Source: Clostridia bacterium
Lineage (GTDB): Bacteria; Bacillota; Clostridia; Christensenellales; Aristaeellaceae
Direction of reading: 5' to 3'
Assembly: GCA_017938795.1 (NCBI GenBank)
Contig: JAGBAV010000121.1
Location: forward strand, 1 to 43,783
DNA length: 43,783 nucleotides
Position numbers and translations under genes: made by a program. Below, piece by piece: positions 10,660 to 21,600 of the stretch. Within the stretch, counting starts at the first letter, position 1, and every line of letters starts with the position of its first letter. Under the pieces are notes generated by a model. That model did not search any database. It worked only from the letters and a program-made list of their open reading frames with translations, and was not told where the DNA came from.

Positions 10660-11595
10660 ATGGAAGAGATCATCATACAGCAGAAGGACAGGCCGAAGAA
10701 CCTGACGGGCAAGGCGTTTCTGATCGCAGCTGCAGGTCTTGTGCTGCGCATTGCGCTGGCGCAGACAGCAGCCAGCCTGCTGCTTGCCGCCACGGGTGAG
10801 GGCCTGTTTCGTATGCTGTTTTATCTGTATGCAGTCTGGCTGCTGGTGCGGCATATGCGCAGGATGGTCGAAGGCTATACCTATACGCTCAGGCAGGAGA
10901 CACTTGTTCTGCAGCGGCAGCTGGGCGACAGCGCGCATGCCGTGGTCGAAATCCCGCTGCGCAGCCTGCGTGCGATCCGCCCTGTGGCGATGGGCGAGCG
11001 GCTGGGGCTGTATTACCGCAAGGTGAAGGTGATTGACCCCTCTGCTGCGCCCTCGCTGAGGATGCGCATCGCCTTTGCGGCGAGCTATCTTTCCTCGCGG
11101 CTTGCAAGGAAGATCGCCGGGGAGGATGCGCGGCGCGTTATCGGCTGCGTCGCAGTCTATGAGGAGAATGAAAAGCTCATGGCATGCGTCTTCCGCCCGG
11201 ACGAGGCTTTCCGCGCTGCGCTTGCGCGCGAGCTGCCGCAGGTCTTCGGGGACGACGACCGCGCATGGCGTGATAAGCTGGAGAAGCTCTCCGCCAGAGC
11301 GCTGAACCGCGCCTTCCCGGATCTGTATCCGTATGTGCGTCCTCTCTTTGACGAGGAGGAGGCAGTATGGGCGAAGGAAGAGATTGCGCGCCAGAAGGCG
11401 GAGAAGAAAGCAGATAAAGAGAAAAAAGCCAAAAAGAAGGCGGAGAAGCGGGAGATCCGGAGCGGATGGCTCAGGAGCGATAAGCCCGCGGCGAACGAGA
11501 ATAACGAAGAAAACGAGCAGCACGAGCAGGCACCGCGCCGCAGAGCGGACCGGAGCCCGCACAAGGATGAAGGAAGGAACAGGAGCAAGCGATGA
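10660..11595 (+). CDS. Membrane protein of unknown function, possible bacterial PH-like domain
   Basis: A 311-residue protein with two hydrophobic segments at about residues 18-60, then a cytosolic region whose pattern (YTYTLRQETLVLQRQLGD, VVEIPLRSLRAIRPV) resembles membrane-linked bacterial PH domains such as the YcxB or bPH2 type. The C-terminal 80 residues are a highly charged Lys/Glu/Ala stretch (AEKKADKEKKAKKKAEKRE) followed by a disordered polar tail. The PH-like reading is weak. The last four bases overlap the start of the HAD-Tmk gene (ATGA-type coupling), so the two are expressed together. I cannot name a function. Confidence 0.7.
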   Translation: MEEIIIQQKDRPKNLTGKAFLIAAAGLVLRIALAQTAASLLLAATGEGLFRMLFYLYAVWLLVRHMRRMVEGYTYTLRQETLVLQRQLGDSAHAVVEIPLRSLRAIRPVAMGERLGLYYRKVKVIDPSAAPSLRMRIAFAASYLSSRLARKIAGEDARRVIGCVAVYEENEKLMACVFRPDEAFRAALARELPQVFGDDDRAWRDKLEKLSARALNRAFPDLYPYVRPLFDEEEAVWAKEEIARQKAEKKADKEKKAKKKAEKREIRSGWLRSDKPAANENNEENEQHEQAPRRRADRSPHKDEGRNRSKR

Positions 11596-12872
11596 AGTAC
11601 ACGACCGTATTGTTCGATCTCGACGGCACGCTCACACGGTCGGAGGAGGGCATCACCCGCTGCGCGCTGTATGCGGCGGAGAAGATGGGCTTCACCGGCT
11701 ATACCAAGGAGCAGTTCATGGCGTTCATCGGCCCGCCGCTGTTTATGTCCTTCAAGAATATCGTCGGCATGACCGACGAGCAGGCGGATCAGGCGACGGC
11801 GCTCTACCGCGAGCGCTTCTCCACGATCGGCTGGGCGGAGAACGAGGTATACACCGGGATCCCCGCGCTGCTGCGCAGCCTGAAGATGAACGGCGTGAAG
11901 ATCGCGATGGCGACGGCAAAGCCGCAGGCCTTCGCGGAGAAGATCGCCAGGAAGTTTGGATTCACGCCGTATCTGGATGCGCTCATCGGCCCCGGCTTTG
12001 ACAAGAAGCACGCCGGCAAGGCGGATATCGTGCGCGAATGCATCCGTCTGCTGGGCGGCAGCGTCGTCATGGTCGGCGACCGCTGCTTCGATGTGGAGGG
12101 CGGCGCGGCCAATGGCGTGGACACCATCGGCGTCACCTACGGCTACGGCACGGAGGAGGAGCTGCGCGAGGCCGGCGCGACGCATATCGCGCACAGCGTG
12201 GCGGAGCTTGCGGGTATTCTCCTTGGCGATGCGCCGCGTGCAAAGGGGCTGTTTGTGACCATGGAGGGCATGGATGGCTGCGGCAAGACGACGCAGCGCC
12301 GCGCGCTGGTCGATTACCTGACGCAGCTTGGCTGGGAGATTCAGGCAACCCGCGAGCCGGGCGGCGACGAGATCGCGGAGAAGATCCGCACGCTGGTGCT
12401 CGACCCGGTCAATACCGCGATGCATGACGTGACGGAGGCGTATCTCTACGCCGCCAGCCGCGCGCAGAATGTGCGCGCGCTGATCCGCCCCGCGCTGGAG
12501 GCGGGCAAGGCGGTCGTCTGCGACCGGTTTGTGGATTCGTCCATCGCCTATCAGGGCGGCGGCAGGCAGCTGGGGACGAAGGACGTCGCTGCGATCAATG
12601 CATCTGCCGTCGGCGATACGATTCCGGATATCACGATTTACCTGCGCATGACGCCGCAGGATGCGCTTGGCCGCAGGCTCAGCGCCTCTGAGCCGGACAG
12701 GCTGGAGCGCGAGAAGGCGAGCTTCTTTGAGCGCACCTTCCTTGCCTATGAGGAACTGTATGCTCAGGAGCATACGGGGCGTGTGATTACCGTGGATGCT
12801 TCTCGGTCGATTGAAGAGGTCACCGCTGAGATGATCGGCAAGCTCGACGAGCGGCTGTCGGCGCTGGCATAA
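11592..12872 (+). CDS. tmk: Fused HAD phosphatase and thymidylate kinase
   Basis: A 426-residue two-domain protein. Residues 1 to about 217 form a Gph/PpaX-type HAD phosphatase: FDLDGTLTRS (Asp9, Asp11), MATAKPQ, the lysine in KHAGKAD, and MVGDRCFDVEG. Residues 220-426 form a complete thymidylate kinase, which phosphorylates dTMP to dTDP: P-loop EGMDGCGKTTQ at 225-235, TREPGGDE, CDRFVDSSIAYQG in place of the usual DRY motif, and a lid region around RRLSASEPDR. Both sets of catalytic residues look intact. A GTG at 12255, six bases after AAGGGG, could give a separate kinase of about 205 residues. It overlaps the previous gene by four bases. No other tmk is in the window. Confidence 0.93.
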   Translation: MKYTTVLFDLDGTLTRSEEGITRCALYAAEKMGFTGYTKEQFMAFIGPPLFMSFKNIVGMTDEQADQATALYRERFSTIGWAENEVYTGIPALLRSLKMNGVKIAMATAKPQAFAEKIARKFGFTPYLDALIGPGFDKKHAGKADIVRECIRLLGGSVVMVGDRCFDVEGGAANGVDTIGVTYGYGTEEELREAGATHIAHSVAELAGILLGDAPRAKGLFVTMEGMDGCGKTTQRRALVDYLTQLGWEIQATREPGGDEIAEKIRTLVLDPVNTAMHDVTEAYLYAASRAQNVRALIRPALEAGKAVVCDRFVDSSIAYQGGGRQLGTKDVAAINASAVGDTIPDITIYLRMTPQDALGRRLSASEPDRLEREKASFFERTFLAYEELYAQEHTGRVITVDASRSIEEVTAEMIGKLDERLSALA

Positions 12873-14615: not shown

Positions 14616-15617
14616 TCAGGCAAGCTTCAGCATGGTGATTGACGCCAGCACGTTGCCGGGGTCGGCGACGGTCAGCGAGAGCGCGTCGGATGCTGTGAGG
14701 GCGACGGTGGTCGTGCCGTCGGAGGTGACGATGGCGCTGATCGTATAGGAGCCGACCGCCGTGTCAGCCGGCGTCACCGTGGAGGCGATCGGCGTGCCGT
14801 CCTGAGCAAGGCGCAGCGTGGTGCCCGCAGCAAGACCGGCAGGCAGATTGATCGTCGCCGTGACGAGATACGTGCCGGGTGCTGCAAGGGTGAACAGACC
14901 GTCGCTCTGCGTGACGGCATCGGCCGGGGTGGACGTGAACGTCGGGAAGGGGAACGGCGTATCAGCGGCGATATCCGTCGGGCTGGTGCTGTAGCCGGAC
15001 GCATATGCAGCAAGGCCTGTGCCGCTTTCGCCTGCCGGGCCAGCGGGGCCGGTCGCACCAGTCGGGCCAACCGGCCCAGCGGGGCCGGTCGCGCCGGTTG
15101 CACCAGTCGGACCAACAGGACCAGCCGGACCGGTCGCTCCGGTTGCACCTGTCAGACCGGTCGGACCTGCAGGGCCAACAGGCCCAGCCGGACCGATCGC
15201 GCCAGCCGGGCCAGTCGCGCCAGTCAGGCCAGCCGGGCCAGCGGGACCAACAGGACCAGCGGGGCCAGCTGCGCCGGTTGCGCCTGCAGGGCCAGCAGGG
15301 CCTGCCGGGCCAGCGGGGCCCGTTGCGCCCGTCGCACCGGCAGGGCCAGTCGGGCCCATTGCGCCGGTCGCACCAGCAGGTCCTGTTGCGCCGATCGGTC
15401 CCTGAGCGCCCTGAGGCCCCTGAGCGCCTGCAGGCCCCGTGGGGCCCTGAATACCCTGCGGGCCGCGCGGCCCTGTGGGGCCTTGCGGGCCTGACGGCGG
15501 ATAAGGGGCGGGCGGATAGGGAGCAGGCGGATACGGCGTTGGATATCCCGGACAGACGCAGCGATCGTCAGCGTGCCAGCCTGTGCCGCAGTTTTGGTTC
15601 GCAATAAAGAACGGCAA
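14616..15617 (-). CDS. Collagen-like surface protein (BclA-like architecture)
   Basis: A protein of about 333 residues in three parts. The N-terminus has three cysteines and a [14 protein letters not shown] run. Next come 52 unbroken Gly-X-Y triplets, mostly GPA, GAT, GPT and GPV, encoded by 15024-15491. The C-terminal domain of about 130 residues ([19 protein letters not shown], then [11 protein letters not shown]) looks like the beta jelly-roll trimer cap of BclA-type exosporium proteins. About 19 triplets carry Thr in the Y position, the site glycosylated in BclA. There is no classic signal peptide, as in exosporium proteins. TTG at 15615-15617 lies five bases after AGGTGA; GTG at 15624-15626 in the same frame is the alternative. 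It is divergent from a glycosyltransferase gene. Surface or spore location is inferred. Confidence 0.88.
15024..15491 (-). repeat. DNA encoding 52 Gly-X-Y collagen triplets
   Basis: Nine-base-like units rich in GGNCCNGCN/ACN codons repeat without interruption over 468 bases. Triplet blocks such as [15 protein letters not shown] recur nearly identically, which suggests growth by slippage or unequal crossover. Its length may differ between strains. Confidence 0.9.
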
Positions 15618-15681
15618 ATGTCTCACCTGCTTTCATAGAATGAAGGGCGCGGGGGAGGAGCTTGATTCCCGCACCCTGGCA

Positions 15682-15709
15682 TACTCTATGACATGGCAGG
15701 GCGCGGCGT
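15682..15709 (-). promoter_or_regulatory. Possible sporulation sigma-K-type promoter for the collagen-like gene
   Basis: On the - strand CATAGAGTA (15690-15682) fits the sigma-K -10 pattern CATANNNTA, and an AC dinucleotide (15709-15708) lies 17 bases upstream, where the -35 AC is expected. The short motif can occur by chance, so the call is tentative. Confidence 0.35.
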
Positions 15710-15745
15710 GCCTGTCCGCCGCCCTGCGCAGGAGGAGGGGTATGG

Positions 15746-16870
15746 ATGGAATTGTCGCTGTGCATGATTGTTCGCAATGAAGCTGAGAATCTGGCTCGAT
15801 GTCTTGATAGCGTATCGGGCGTCGTGGAAGAGATGATCATCCTGGATACGGGATCGACGGACGACACCAAAGCCATCGCAAGGCGCTATACACCCCATGT
15901 CTATGACTATGTGTGGCGGGACGATTTCGCCGCCGCCCGCAATGCGGCGTTTGCCTATGCGACGAAGCCGTATCTTCTCTGGATGGATGCAGACGATATG
16001 CTGGAGGAAACAGCGCAGCTCCGGCTGGCTGCGCTCAAGCCAAGGCTTGACGGCACGGTTGACGCCGTCATGACGCCGTATCACTATGCGCATGACTGCG
16101 GCGGTCGGCCGACGCTGATCTTTGAGCGGGAGCGCATCGTCCGCGCCGGAGCCGGCTTCCGCTTTGAGGGCAGGGTACATGAGGCGATGGCGGTGAGCGG
16201 GCGCATCCTGCATGAGGATATTGTGATCCGGCACATGCGTATCCATGAGCAGGGGCATACACAGCGCAATCTGTCGGTATATAAGGGGATGATTGAGCGG
16301 GGCGAGGCGCTTTCTCAGCGGGACCAGTATTATTACGCGCGGGAGCTGATGGCGGCAGGCAGGCTGAGGGAGGCAGAGCAGGCGCTTGCAGCCTGCATGG
16401 AGGAAGACGGGCTTGCGTACTGCCTTGCTGACGTCTGTATGCAGCGGGGAAAATGCCTGATGGGGCTCGGCGAGCATGCGCAGGCCAAAAGACAGCTGCT
16501 GCTTGCACTCGCCTATGGGCCCGACAGGGCGGAGGCGCTCTGTGCACTGGGTGAGGCCTGTATGGCGGCCGGGGAGGATGACGCTGCGGTCTTCTGGTAT
16601 CGAGCAGCACTCCTTTGTGAGCCGCCGGAGCCCGGATTCATGTTTGTCGAGCCGGCGGCGTATGACTATATCCCGCTGATGCAGCTGTGCGTGCTGCTTG
16701 ACCGCAGGGGTGACGTCTGCGAAGCATCCCGGATGAATGAGCGCGCGCTGCTTGTGCGGCCCGGGGATGAGGCGGCGCTGCGGAACAGAGCCTATTTTGA
16801 AGCGCTGTTTTCGCAGGATAAGATTGTTTGCAGCACCCCCGGGGAGAGAAACGCAGAACAGGAGGGATGA
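15746..16870 (+). CDS. Family 2 glycosyltransferase with TPR-like C-terminus
   Basis: A 374-residue cytosolic protein. Residues 1 to about 190 form a GT-A family 2 glycosyltransferase: SLCMIVRNEAENLARCLDS, ILDTGSTDDT, and the metal/sugar-nucleotide motif LLWMDADD. This subfamily includes SunS-type peptide glycosyltransferases. The rest consists of tetratricopeptide-like helices (YYARELMAAGRLREAEQAL, ALGEACMAAGEDDAAVFWY). ATG 15746 follows AGGAGGAGGGG by five bases. The gene is divergent from the collagen-like gene, and collagen-like spore proteins often have a glycosyltransferase next door (for example sgtA with bclA3 in C. difficile). It probably adds sugars to the Thr-rich collagen region; that is inferred. 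Its stop overlaps the ATG at 16867. Confidence 0.87.
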   Translation: MELSLCMIVRNEAENLARCLDSVSGVVEEMIILDTGSTDDTKAIARRYTPHVYDYVWRDDFAAARNAAFAYATKPYLLWMDADDMLEETAQLRLAALKPRLDGTVDAVMTPYHYAHDCGGRPTLIFERERIVRAGAGFRFEGRVHEAMAVSGRILHEDIVIRHMRIHEQGHTQRNLSVYKGMIERGEALSQRDQYYYARELMAAGRLREAEQALAACMEEDGLAYCLADVCMQRGKCLMGLGEHAQAKRQLLLALAYGPDRAEALCALGEACMAAGEDDAAVFWYRAALLCEPPEPGFMFVEPAAYDYIPLMQLCVLLDRRGDVCEASRMNERALLVRPGDEAALRNRAYFEALFSQDKIVCSTPGERNAEQEG

Positions 16871-18726: not shown

Positions 18727-18768
18727 TCACAGGCGGAAACGCCGAACAGAAAACAAGAGGTGACAGAG

Positions 18769-21600
18769 ATGAAGAGCGATCTGACCTGCCCGGTGGAGGT
18801 TGTCAGCGTAAGAATCGGACGGGAGAAGTACGAGGAGAACGGCGCGGACAAGGAACAGCTGGTCTGTGTGATTGAGTTTTTCAATCTGTCCGACAAGCTG
18901 ATTGACAGTGTGCAGATGAATATCATCTGCTTTGCCGCGGACGGCTCGCGCGTTGGCGGTCGGCTGGTGCGCTCCGCCGTGGAGGGCGAGGCGCGCGCGC
19001 GTTTCTCTGCGCCCTTTATGCCGGAGCATGTCGACGGCACGGAGCGCGTGGAGGCATCTGTGGAGAAGGTATGGTTCAAGGACGGCATGGTCTGGCGGCG
19101 TGAAGAGCGCAATGTGCGCGAATATACGCCCAATACGCTGCCTGAGGGGCGCGAGCTGGATCGTCTGCGCGCGGCCGCCGGCGCGGACGCCGTGGGCTAT
19201 GCCCGCGAGGACGATATCGTCTGGATGTGCGTCTGCGGCAGAGCCAACAGGACGAGCGACGAAAAGTGCCGCCGCTGCGAGCGGGAGAGGCAGCAGGTGC
19301 TGCGCGATTACAGCTTTGCGGCGGTCGATGCGACGGTCGGGCGCAAGGAGCGCGACCTTGAGGAGAAGACCAAGGAGACCCTGCGCCGCAGCAGCGAGGA
19401 GACTGTCCGTCAGGGGCAGAGCGAGCAGAAGAAGACCAAGCGCCGCAAGCGGAGGATGCGTCTGCTGATCGCGCTGCTGCTGCTGGTCATCATTGCGCTG
19501 GCGGCTGCGCGCTGGGGCGTGCCGTATGCGGCGGGGCTGTATGCCGCGCAGGAGATGGAGAAGGGGCACGCTGCCGATGCGAAGGAGATCTATCTCTTTA
19601 TTGAGCGCTGGTGGCCGGGCTTCGGCGCAGGCGACAAGGCCGACGAGGCGGAGAAGGTCATTATCGAAGGGCTCATCACGGCGGGAAATAACGAGGCGCT
19701 TGCGGATGCGGCGGCCCGCGCCCTGCAGCTTGGCACGAAGGACGGCTCTGTCCTCCATGAGCGCGCCGTGCTCGCCCGTGCGCAGCTGGCGATCGACGCG
19801 GACGAGGATGCGAAGGCGGAGGAGCTGCTGACCGGCCTTGCAGACAGCGAGGCTGCGCAGACCATGCTCCGCGAGCTGATCTACAGCATCGCCGCGGAGG
19901 CGAAGAAGCAGACCAATTATCCGCTGGCGATCGAGCGCTTTGCTTCTCTTGGCGAGTATATGGATGCGCAGGAGCAGCAGCTTGACAGCGTCTATCTCTA
20001 TGGACGGCAGCTGATGCGCGAGGGCAGCTATGCCGCGGCCTGCGATCAGTTCCTGATCGTATCGGACAGGGAGGATGCGGTTGCGCTGATCCGTCAGTGC
20101 CGCTATGCGCTGGCAGGCGAGCTGATGGAGCAGGATGAGTATGTCGAGGCGGCGAAGCTCTATGAAACGCTGGGCATCTACGAGGAGGCGGAGACGCGCG
20201 CCGAGTTCTGCCGTTACAGCGCGGGCATGAATGCGCTGGAGGAGGGCCGCCTTGAGGAGGCTGTCAGGCAGCTTGCGCTCGCCGGTGATTATGAGGATGC
20301 GCAGGAGCAGTACGTGACGGCGTCCTATACGCTGGGCTGCGCAGCGATGACGGACGGCAGGTATGCCGACGCAATCGGCTGGCTGGAGCAGCTGGAGCGC
20401 GAGGGCGAGGTGGCGCAGGCGTATGAGCAGGCGGTGTATACCTACGCCCGCCAGCTTGAGGACGCAGGTCAGCTGGAGCCGGCGCAGCAGCAGTTTGCGC
20501 TGGTCGGCGATTATGAGGATGCTGCGCAGCGCCTCAGGTCGATTGAATACAGACTGGCTGTGCGCGAAATGGAGCAGAATGCGGAGGCGGCGCTGGCGCG
20601 CTTTGAGAGCCTTGGCAATTACGAGGATTCCGCGAACATGGCGAATGCCTGCCGCTACATGATCGCAGCAGCGGCGTTTGACGCGGGCGAATACGAGGAC
20701 GCGCTTAAGCGCTTTGAGGCGCTGGGCACGTATGAGGACAGCGAAGGTCAGGCGCAGCGCAGCCGCTATGCGCTGGGCGCGCAGACGGCGGCGGACGGCG
20801 ACTATGAGACGGCGGCGGCGCTCTACGAGGCCTGCGGCGTCTATCTGGATGCGGAGGAGCGCGCGATGCGCGCCCGCTACAGCCATGCGGAGGCGCTGGA
20901 GAAGGCCGGGGATCATGAAGCGGCGTCGAAGGCGTTTGCTGCCCTTGGCAGCTATGAGGACGCCAAGCGCAGAACCACGGCCTGCGAGGATGCGTGGCTG
21001 GGCGCGGCGTATACCGCAGCGCGGATGGATGCGGAGCTGGGCGATCACGAGAGCGTCATCAAGGGGCTTGAGCCGTACTGGCAGAGCGAGCTGCCCGAGC
21101 GCTATGCGCAGATCGCAGAGATGTACCGCGAGGCATGCCTCTCCCGCGCGGAGGCGCTGATCACGCTGGGCAAGCCGCTGGATGCGCTGCCCGTTCTGGA
21201 GCGTGTACCGGACAGCCGCCGTGCGCAGAAGCTCATTGAGGCCTACGTGTATGGCATTATTGGCCGCTGGAAGGACACACAGGGCGGGGAGTATATCTTC
21301 CGCCGCGACGGCAGCTGCTCCATCCTCGGGGAGGAAGGATACTTCGGCGGCGCTGCGTATGACATCTTTGTCGGCAGCGAGCCCTATCCCACCAAAACGG
21401 TTTATTCCGTGATCAGCCTGAAGAAGGCGTCGCTGACCCTGCGCAGGGAAGAGGACGGCAAGAACCTCCGGCTGAGCTATCTGGGCGAGGCGGCGCCTGC
21501 TGAGCAGACGGAAGAAGCAGCCAAAGCGCCCGAAGCCGCCGACAGCGCAGAGGAAACAGGGGCGCAGCCGGCGGAAGAACCGGCCGACAACGCGGCCTGA
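18769..21600 (+). CDS. Membrane protein with zinc ribbon and long helical-repeat domain, function unknown
   Basis: A 943-residue protein. Residues 1-140 form an unassigned, probably beta-rich domain. A four-cysteine zinc ribbon follows (Cys154, Cys156, Cys167, Cys170) in a CxCG...CxxC arrangement. After a charged linker comes one transmembrane helix at about 231-252. The region after the helix, about 600 residues, is a solenoid of at least ten TPR/SEL1-like units of roughly 35 residues with the signature LGxYEDAxxxxxxxRYxxA (for example LGNYEDSANM, LGTYEDSEGQ, LGSYEDAKRR). A small beta-domain (GRWKDTQGGEYIF) and an acidic Ala/Glu/Pro tail close it. By the positive-inside rule the zinc ribbon is cytosolic and the repeats external. 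ATG 18769 follows AAGAGGTG. Similar repeat proteins are frequent in Clostridia; I know of no function. Confidence 0.8.
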   Translation: MKSDLTCPVEVVSVRIGREKYEENGADKEQLVCVIEFFNLSDKLIDSVQMNIICFAADGSRVGGRLVRSAVEGEARARFSAPFMPEHVDGTERVEASVEKVWFKDGMVWRREERNVREYTPNTLPEGRELDRLRAAAGADAVGYAREDDIVWMCVCGRANRTSDEKCRRCERERQQVLRDYSFAAVDATVGRKERDLEEKTKETLRRSSEETVRQGQSEQKKTKRRKRRMRLLIALLLLVIIALAAARWGVPYAAGLYAAQEMEKGHAADAKEIYLFIERWWPGFGAGDKADEAEKVIIEGLITAGNNEALADAAARALQLGTKDGSVLHERAVLARAQLAIDADEDAKAEELLTGLADSEAAQTMLRELIYSIAAEAKKQTNYPLAIERFASLGEYMDAQEQQLDSVYLYGRQLMREGSYAAACDQFLIVSDREDAVALIRQCRYALAGELMEQDEYVEAAKLYETLGIYEEAETRAEFCRYSAGMNALEEGRLEEAVRQLALAGDYEDAQEQYVTASYTLGCAAMTDGRYADAIGWLEQLEREGEVAQAYEQAVYTYARQLEDAGQLEPAQQQFALVGDYEDAAQRLRSIEYRLAVREMEQNAEAALARFESLGNYEDSANMANACRYMIAAAAFDAGEYEDALKRFEALGTYEDSEGQAQRSRYALGAQTAADGDYETAAALYEACGVYLDAEERAMRARYSHAEALEKAGDHEAASKAFAALGSYEDAKRRTTACEDAWLGAAYTAARMDAELGDHESVIKGLEPYWQSELPERYAQIAEMYREACLSRAEALITLGKPLDALPVLERVPDSRRAQKLIEAYVYGIIGRWKDTQGGEYIFRRDGSCSILGEEGYFGGAAYDIFVGSEPYPTKTVYSVISLKKASLTLRREEDGKNLRLSYLGEAAPAEQTEEAAKAPEAADSAEETGAQPAEEPADNAA

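Follow-up and report, generated by a model that had tools for sequence, protein, structure and literature searches.

A divergent glycosyltransferase and collagen-like gene pair with a symmetric sigma-K-type promoter element in an uncultured gut bacterium

The window analysed here, the whole 43,783-nucleotide stretch of contig JAGBAV010000121.1, comes from an uncultured gut bacterium (2.87-Mb genome, 78.8 % complete). It contains a gene for a collagen-like protein and, divergent from it, a gene for a family 2 glycosyltransferase (GT), with a palindrome in the gap that reads as a sigma-K-type -10 box on both strands. We consider it likely that the two genes form a spore-surface glycoprotein module of the kind represented by SgtA and BclA3 of Clostridioides difficile, with one sigma-K promoter shared in both directions. 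An earlier note on this DNA had proposed that the pair builds a glycosylated filament on the spore or cell surface. This interpretation is supported, with the spore favoured by the sigma-K-type promoters and the co-occurrence with SpoIVA, and the cell surface disfavoured.

The gene pair and its promoter element

The collagen-like open reading frame (ORF) includes 52 perfect Gly-X-Y triplets (53 when a terminal G-T-G is counted), with Thr at Y in 19 and at X in 1, and Pro at X in 32. The counts of 52 and about 19 in the earlier note were therefore accurate. As the longest Gly-X-Y run in the other five frames across the whole window is 4, the run is not due to chance. The Pfam models Collagen (PF01391, 85 bits, cut-off 27.2) and BclA_C (PF18573, 43.2 bits, cut-off 38, residues 219-336) both match, the latter bearing out the BclA-like cap described previously. 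The three cysteines and PYPPA repeat were also found as described, with Cys at positions 13, 23 and 25 and the repeat following. Relatives in the genus share the leader M(L)P[FY][FY].A and a Cys-rich stretch, and G006 has an ATG at the codon aligned with the TTG at 15617. Because of this conserved leader and the aligned ATG, the start is probably TTG 15617. The coordinates given earlier stand, except that the GTG at 15626 probably belongs to the ribosome-binding site. The N-terminus reads as a genus-specific leader with Cys, and no exosporium leader model was among the NCBIfam matches at E <= 1, in a library not confirmed to contain one.

A BclA_C-type cap is found at the locus in the window, G006, G017, G021, G025, G027 and G028 (several split at contig ends), and a short tail (...LLANLRAAGLL.. 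or similar) replaces it in five genus loci (G001, G008, G012, G016 and G019). As one locus carries either a cap or a short tail, the outward end appears to have been exchanged with the anchor and promoter retained. A PDB sequence search with the cap gave no significant match (best E 4.3).

The facing gene encodes 374 aa and matches Glycos_transf_2 (72.2 bits) and TPR_2 (33.4 bits) in Pfam, as expected from its earlier description as a family 2 glycosyltransferase with helical repeats. A model of the GT was compared with the PDB using VIA-align. D81-D84 are taken as its active site. The SunS S-glycosyltransferase model TIGR04195 gives 69.5 bits, below its equivalog cut-off of 350.

The palindrome CATANNNTATG lies in the GT/collagen gap at all 16 GT loci of the genus, giving the -10 CATANNNTA from either strand, and the shared symmetric -10 expected of a bidirectional promoter is thus present. 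In the window, the gap is 119 bp long. When the loci are aligned on the palindrome, the invariant positions are CATA, TATG, a GTG at a distance of 17 nt on the right and, on the left, several bases within a GGGAACTTGTTT...CCC block. The 17-nt spacer averages only 0.44 bits per column versus the invariant -10 and -35 that flank it. The spacing between the -35 and -10 of sigma-K promoters is about 17 nt. The leftward arrangement CAC-N17-CATANNNTA, which includes both the -35 AC and the -10 CATANNNTA of a sigma-K promoter, was found at 16/16 loci, and the rightward -10 is likewise present at 16/16. In C. difficile, bclA1-3 are described as under sigma-K control, with start sites unmapped in that source, and one sigma-K promoter is given there with a -35 AC and a CATATAAT -10 (PMC3789822). 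Symmetric -10 elements are reported to drive divergent sigma-70 transcription in E. coli (PMC12825309).

Loci L040-L063 (222,943 bases) contain 15 copies of the palindrome. The composite that adds the -35 is present in a single copy per genus locus (15 loci) and absent from the 9 others. The window contains the palindrome twice, with the second copy inside DacF. In a pattern search of 60 genomes, the fuller element was found at most once per genome, in 14 genomes (own included) and always beside the GT. At the genus GT loci of G017 and G021, which this search missed, the palindrome is present on direct reading. The layout at two divergent loci from other genomes (L181 and L093) also matches the genus element. 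A literature search, mostly outside subscription journals, found no description of a sigma-K bidirectional promoter and no account of a general GT/collagen pairing.

The host genome encodes SpoIVA and SigE (382.8 bits, cut-off 339). A second sigma factor, scoring only 222.1 against 339 with the SigE model, is best read as SigK.

Under the proposed explanation, sigma-K RNA polymerase would bind the symmetric promoter in the mother cell late in sporulation, and the collagen-like protein would be transcribed leftward and the GT rightward. The TPR arm of the GT would hold the Gly-Pro/Ala-Thr chain, and the GT-A domain would meanwhile attach a sugar, by analogy GlcNAc, to the Y threonines ahead of triple-helix closure. 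Trimers would then be anchored in the outer spore layer by the leader with its cysteines, and the BclA_C cap would face outward. The most likely product is a nap of O-glycosylated collagen on the spore. A broader proposal has two parts: that selection built the mirror-symmetric sigma-K promoter, in which a single -10 couples the timing and rough dose of the spore collagen and its GT, and that the GT family is dedicated to the O-glycosylation of collagens, is widespread among spore-forming Bacillota and accompanies collagens in several arrangements of the genes. We are evenly divided on whether both parts hold together. SgtA of C. difficile is the only characterised enzyme of this kind found in the literature searched. 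If the chemistry is the same, many gut and soil spore formers would use a single enzyme family to decorate their spore collagens, a point relevant to the adhesion and spread of commensal spores. The symmetric element, if the proposal is true, would provide a clear-cut natural example of selection maintaining a bidirectional promoter in development.

Distribution and pairing in relatives

The GT was found in 24 of 60 genomes (E <= 1e-20), namely the source genome, 15/28 of the same genus, 0/7 of the same family and 8/24 of the same order. A profile search (E <= 1e-50) recovered it from 130 of 396 genomes of the order, own included, with three from other genera of the family. SpoIVA was detected in 12/15 GT-containing versus 3/13 GT-less genomes of the genus (Fisher p 0.0067) and in 21/24 versus 19/36 of all 60 (p 0.0058). 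Any collagen (E < 1e-6, phage-like collagens counted too) was detected in 15/15 versus 5/13 genomes of the genus (p 0.0004). As the genomes are related and incomplete, these p values are a guide only. The searches yielded no GT, SpoIVA or close DacF from the genus genomes G002, G004, G014, G015, G020, G022 and G023 (3.4-5 Mb), which are possibly a non-sporulating clade placed in the same genus.

A divergent collagen gene is present at 15 of the 16 genus GT loci, and the contig of the 16th stops short of the repeats. The surrounding block MnmA-DUF5662-collagen|GT-DacF-Rlu-TPR protein is conserved in the genus. Alignment A1 included the window and 21 GT loci (L017, L029, L030, L032 and L033, which are cut, distant or partial, were omitted), and alignment A2 the window and 48 of the 80 named loci. 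These named loci are the best 80 of at least 587 relatives (79 once one own-genus locus is removed). Their genome titles are mostly Clostridia and Bacilli, and a collagen-like reading frame at them is defined as at least 8 Gly-X-Y triplets. L177 was excluded from the GT-collagen distance data.

Outside the genus, a collagen gene lies within 4 kb of the GT at 52 of 79 named loci (53/80 with the own-genus locus) and within 800 bp at 43/79, with 41 of these on the same strand. The earlier note had named a failure of the two genes to co-occur in related genomes as refuting; co-occurrence was found both in and beyond the genus. The 44/80 named loci with collagen within 800 bp comprise 23 with the collagen gene downstream on the same strand, 12 with one on both sides on the same strand, 6 upstream on the same strand and 3 divergent (the own-genus locus included). 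The 12 bracketed GTs fall within L095-L126 (e.g. L095, L097, L099 and L101), and the examples combine a short, Thr-poor upstream collagen with a long, Thr-rich downstream one. At least three Cys precede the repeats within 60 residues in 45 of the 54 collagen frames found within 800 bp of the GT at named loci outside the genus. The cap gave no phmmer match to the collagen frames of the named loci. In the order, loci were read for the best-scoring of the 130 genomes (29 of 30 returned), and collagen was found within 1.5 kb at 20 of these 29, two of which are own-genus. Two of 12 matching Priestia plasmid records were opened, and in both the GT is divergent from a collagen-repeat gene. In control flanks of approximately 1.5 kb, collagen was found at 0/6 other GT2 loci of this genome and 0/6 DacF loci of other genera.

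The median fraction of Y positions occupied by Thr is 0.60 in GT-adjacent collagens (n=32) versus 0.29 in non-adjacent ones (n=23), the rows being related. Charged triplets make up 0.03 versus 0.22, with part of the non-adjacent set looking phage-like. Both comparisons leave out any frame of under 15 triplets, along with six loci that are either the G025 locus or GT loci, and the non-adjacent set still contains a few contig-end frames (e.g. L228), possibly from GT loci.

The features of the locus are listed in Table 1. The inverted repeat next to the -10 folds in 12/12 leaders (window z -1.81). However, fixed-register covariation did not exceed that of shuffles (224/500 as high for cells paired), and for this reason a conserved RNA hairpin is not claimed. 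Elsewhere in the window, a 426-aa frame at 11592-12872 (+) is a HAD-type hydrolase fused to a thymidylate kinase (PF13419, PF02223). A 946-aa TPR-like repeat protein at 18760-21600 (+), conserved beside the locus in the genus, has weak Pfam matches only.

Table 1. Features of the GT/collagen locus, numbered from the first nucleotide of the window
Feature	Position	Strand	Basis
Collagen-like protein gene, longest ORF	14616..15626	-	PF01391 and PF18573 matches, triplet count, genus-shared leader
BclA_C (C1q/TNF-like) C-terminal cap	14619..14972	-	PF18573 above cut-off
Gly-X-Y collagen region, 52 triplets and G-T-G, 19 Thr in Y	15015..15491	-	Triplet count
N-terminal leader MPFFIANQ..., three Cys, PYPPA repeat	15492..15617	-	Leader and Cys-rich stretch in genus loci
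Inverted repeat at predicted 5' end of collagen transcript	15646..15679	-	Folds in 12/12 loci
Candidate -35 (GAGC) of rightward GT promoter, 18 nt from -10, weaker	15658..15661	+	GAAC in most of 16
Palindromic shared -10 CATACTCTATG, sigma-K-type CATANNNTA on both strands	15680..15690		CATA and TATG invariant at 16/16 genus GT loci
-35 (CAC) of leftward collagen promoter, 17 nt from -10	15708..15710	-	Invariant at 16/16
GT2 glycosyltransferase, C-terminal TPR superhelix, SgtA-like	15746..16870	+	Pfam/NCBIfam matches, structure comparison

Weighing of the proposed explanation

Several observations count against a shared sigma-K module. The adjacency within the genus is inherited gene order and, because MnmA, DUF5662, DacF and Rlu are also conserved, it is not independent evidence for pairing. 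Independent evidence comes from loci outside the genus, where 27 of 79 named loci have no collagen within 4 kb, some of their contigs ending early. Thr at Y is common across Gram-positive collagens (48.3 %; PMC8968730), so the Thr content is no proof of glycosylation. The second sigma factor of the host passes the SigK subfamily model (299.6 bits against 252), as does the SigE protein, and falls just below the cut-off of the strict SigK model TIGR02846 (297.3 against 298.65). The rightward -35 is weak, with A[AG]C at 18 nt at most of the 16 loci and GAGC in the window. The symmetric -10 is absent from the divergent locus L185 and from both Priestia plasmid loci (no CATANNNTATG in the gap), and only half of the palindrome is kept at L092/L183 (TATAGTCTATG), and as a general rule of divergent GT/collagen loci it is unsupported. 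The likeness to SgtA and BclA3 is one of architecture, SgtA having been compared by description only.

Three of the 13 GT-less genomes of the genus keep DacF (G018, G025 and G028), and two of these also tell against the module. In G025 and G028, the symmetric element, which the pattern search missed, was found by direct reading approximately 100 bp from DacF, the interval containing no GT, and no GT of the same family was detected elsewhere in either genome (E <= 1e-20). Their collagens have Thr in Y at 33 % (G028) and 47 % (G025, half gene only). Because both retain a Thr-containing collagen and lack the GT, it appears that the collagen can persist without it. The third, G018 (L245 1-1505), fits the pair model: the frame that replaces the collagen has Pro/Cys/Glu repeats instead of Gly-X-Y, between a leader reading MPYHVA and a tail reading ..LNALLSNMRAAGLL. 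A single origin of the GT loss is possible; the three genomes do not form one clade in a weakly supported DacF tree.

The alternative that survives best, which we regard as rather unlikely, is that the pair is real but sigma-K drives the collagen gene alone. The symmetry would then be a by-product, and the GT would be transcribed from another promoter or by weak, leaky divergent initiation. The invariant leftward -35 alongside a degenerate rightward one, and the palindrome retained by GT-less G025 and G028, are consistent with this. However, the TG after the leftward CATANNNTA, a requirement of the rightward CATA alone, is invariant at 16/16 loci. In a control of 77 non-divergent named loci, 27 distinct AC-N15-18-CATANNNTA sites, some of which may be due to chance, were found upstream of GT or collagen genes at 24 loci, and in none does TG follow to give TATG. 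In G018, the rightward CATA reads CACC, although the leftward box has changed too: CAC-N17-CATA is kept and the box ends in TG, not TA (CATANNNTG).

It is improbable that the acceptor of the GT is something else, for example a coat protein or spore polysaccharide, and that the collagen gene is an incidental neighbour. The 36/80 named loci with no collagen gene within 800 bp and the survival of the collagen without a GT in G025 and G028 would allow this, but the adjacency recurs across Clostridia and Bacilli in differing orientations, the neighbouring collagens show the Thr-Y bias and low charge described above, and SgtA biochemistry speaks against it.

A vegetative cell-surface adhesin like Scl1/Scl2 is very unlikely. 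NCBIfam SclA/SclB models do match over the repeat region, but far under their cut-off (99.5 against 325). The C-terminus of the protein reads ...ITMLKLA and lacks an LPXTG tail, and the sigma-K-type promoter, BclA_C cap and SpoIVA association also oppose this reading. A phage-derived tail-fibre collagen is scarcely credible, as housekeeping neighbours are conserved genus-wide and the collagen at the locus has low charge, although some other collagen genes in these genomes look phage-like with charged GEKG-type repeats. The grounds for rejecting both readings are gene order, charge and model cut-offs.

Comparison with known systems

The window protein resembles BclA of Bacillus anthracis and Bacillus thuringiensis in having a collagen stalk and the PF18573 cap, both above curated cut-offs, the cap model taking its name from BclA (PMC11952670). 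It differs in having no recognised exosporium leader and a glycosyltransferase next door. On the Priestia megaterium plasmids NC_014025.1 and NZ_CP023318.1, the GT is also divergent from a collagen-repeat gene, with Thr at nearly all Y positions, but the gap lacks a symmetric CATANNNTATG. In contrast to SunS and ThuS, the window GT adjoins a collagen-like gene, and its score with the SunS model is far under the cut-off. The cgeAB and cgeCDE operons of Bacillus subtilis are divergent late mother-cell operons for the spore crust and encode glycosyltransferase-like proteins; to our knowledge, they include no collagen.

As in the bidirectional promoters of Warman et al. (PMC12825309), one symmetric -10 can be read both ways. 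Those promoters are sigma-70 promoters in E. coli, whereas the -10 described here is of a sporulation type and lies at a gene pair that is conserved. The closest system is SgtA/BclA3, for which the comparison made in the earlier note holds in architecture. C. difficile SgtA is described as a GT-A domain followed by C-terminal TPRs, about 360 aa in length, encoded beside a Thr-rich collagen-like gene (PMC7157674), and the window GT has the same domain order, a similar length and the same kind of neighbour. The window pair differs in that its genes diverge from one symmetric promoter, and its collagen-like protein carries a BclA_C cap and a Cys-containing MPFF.AN leader.
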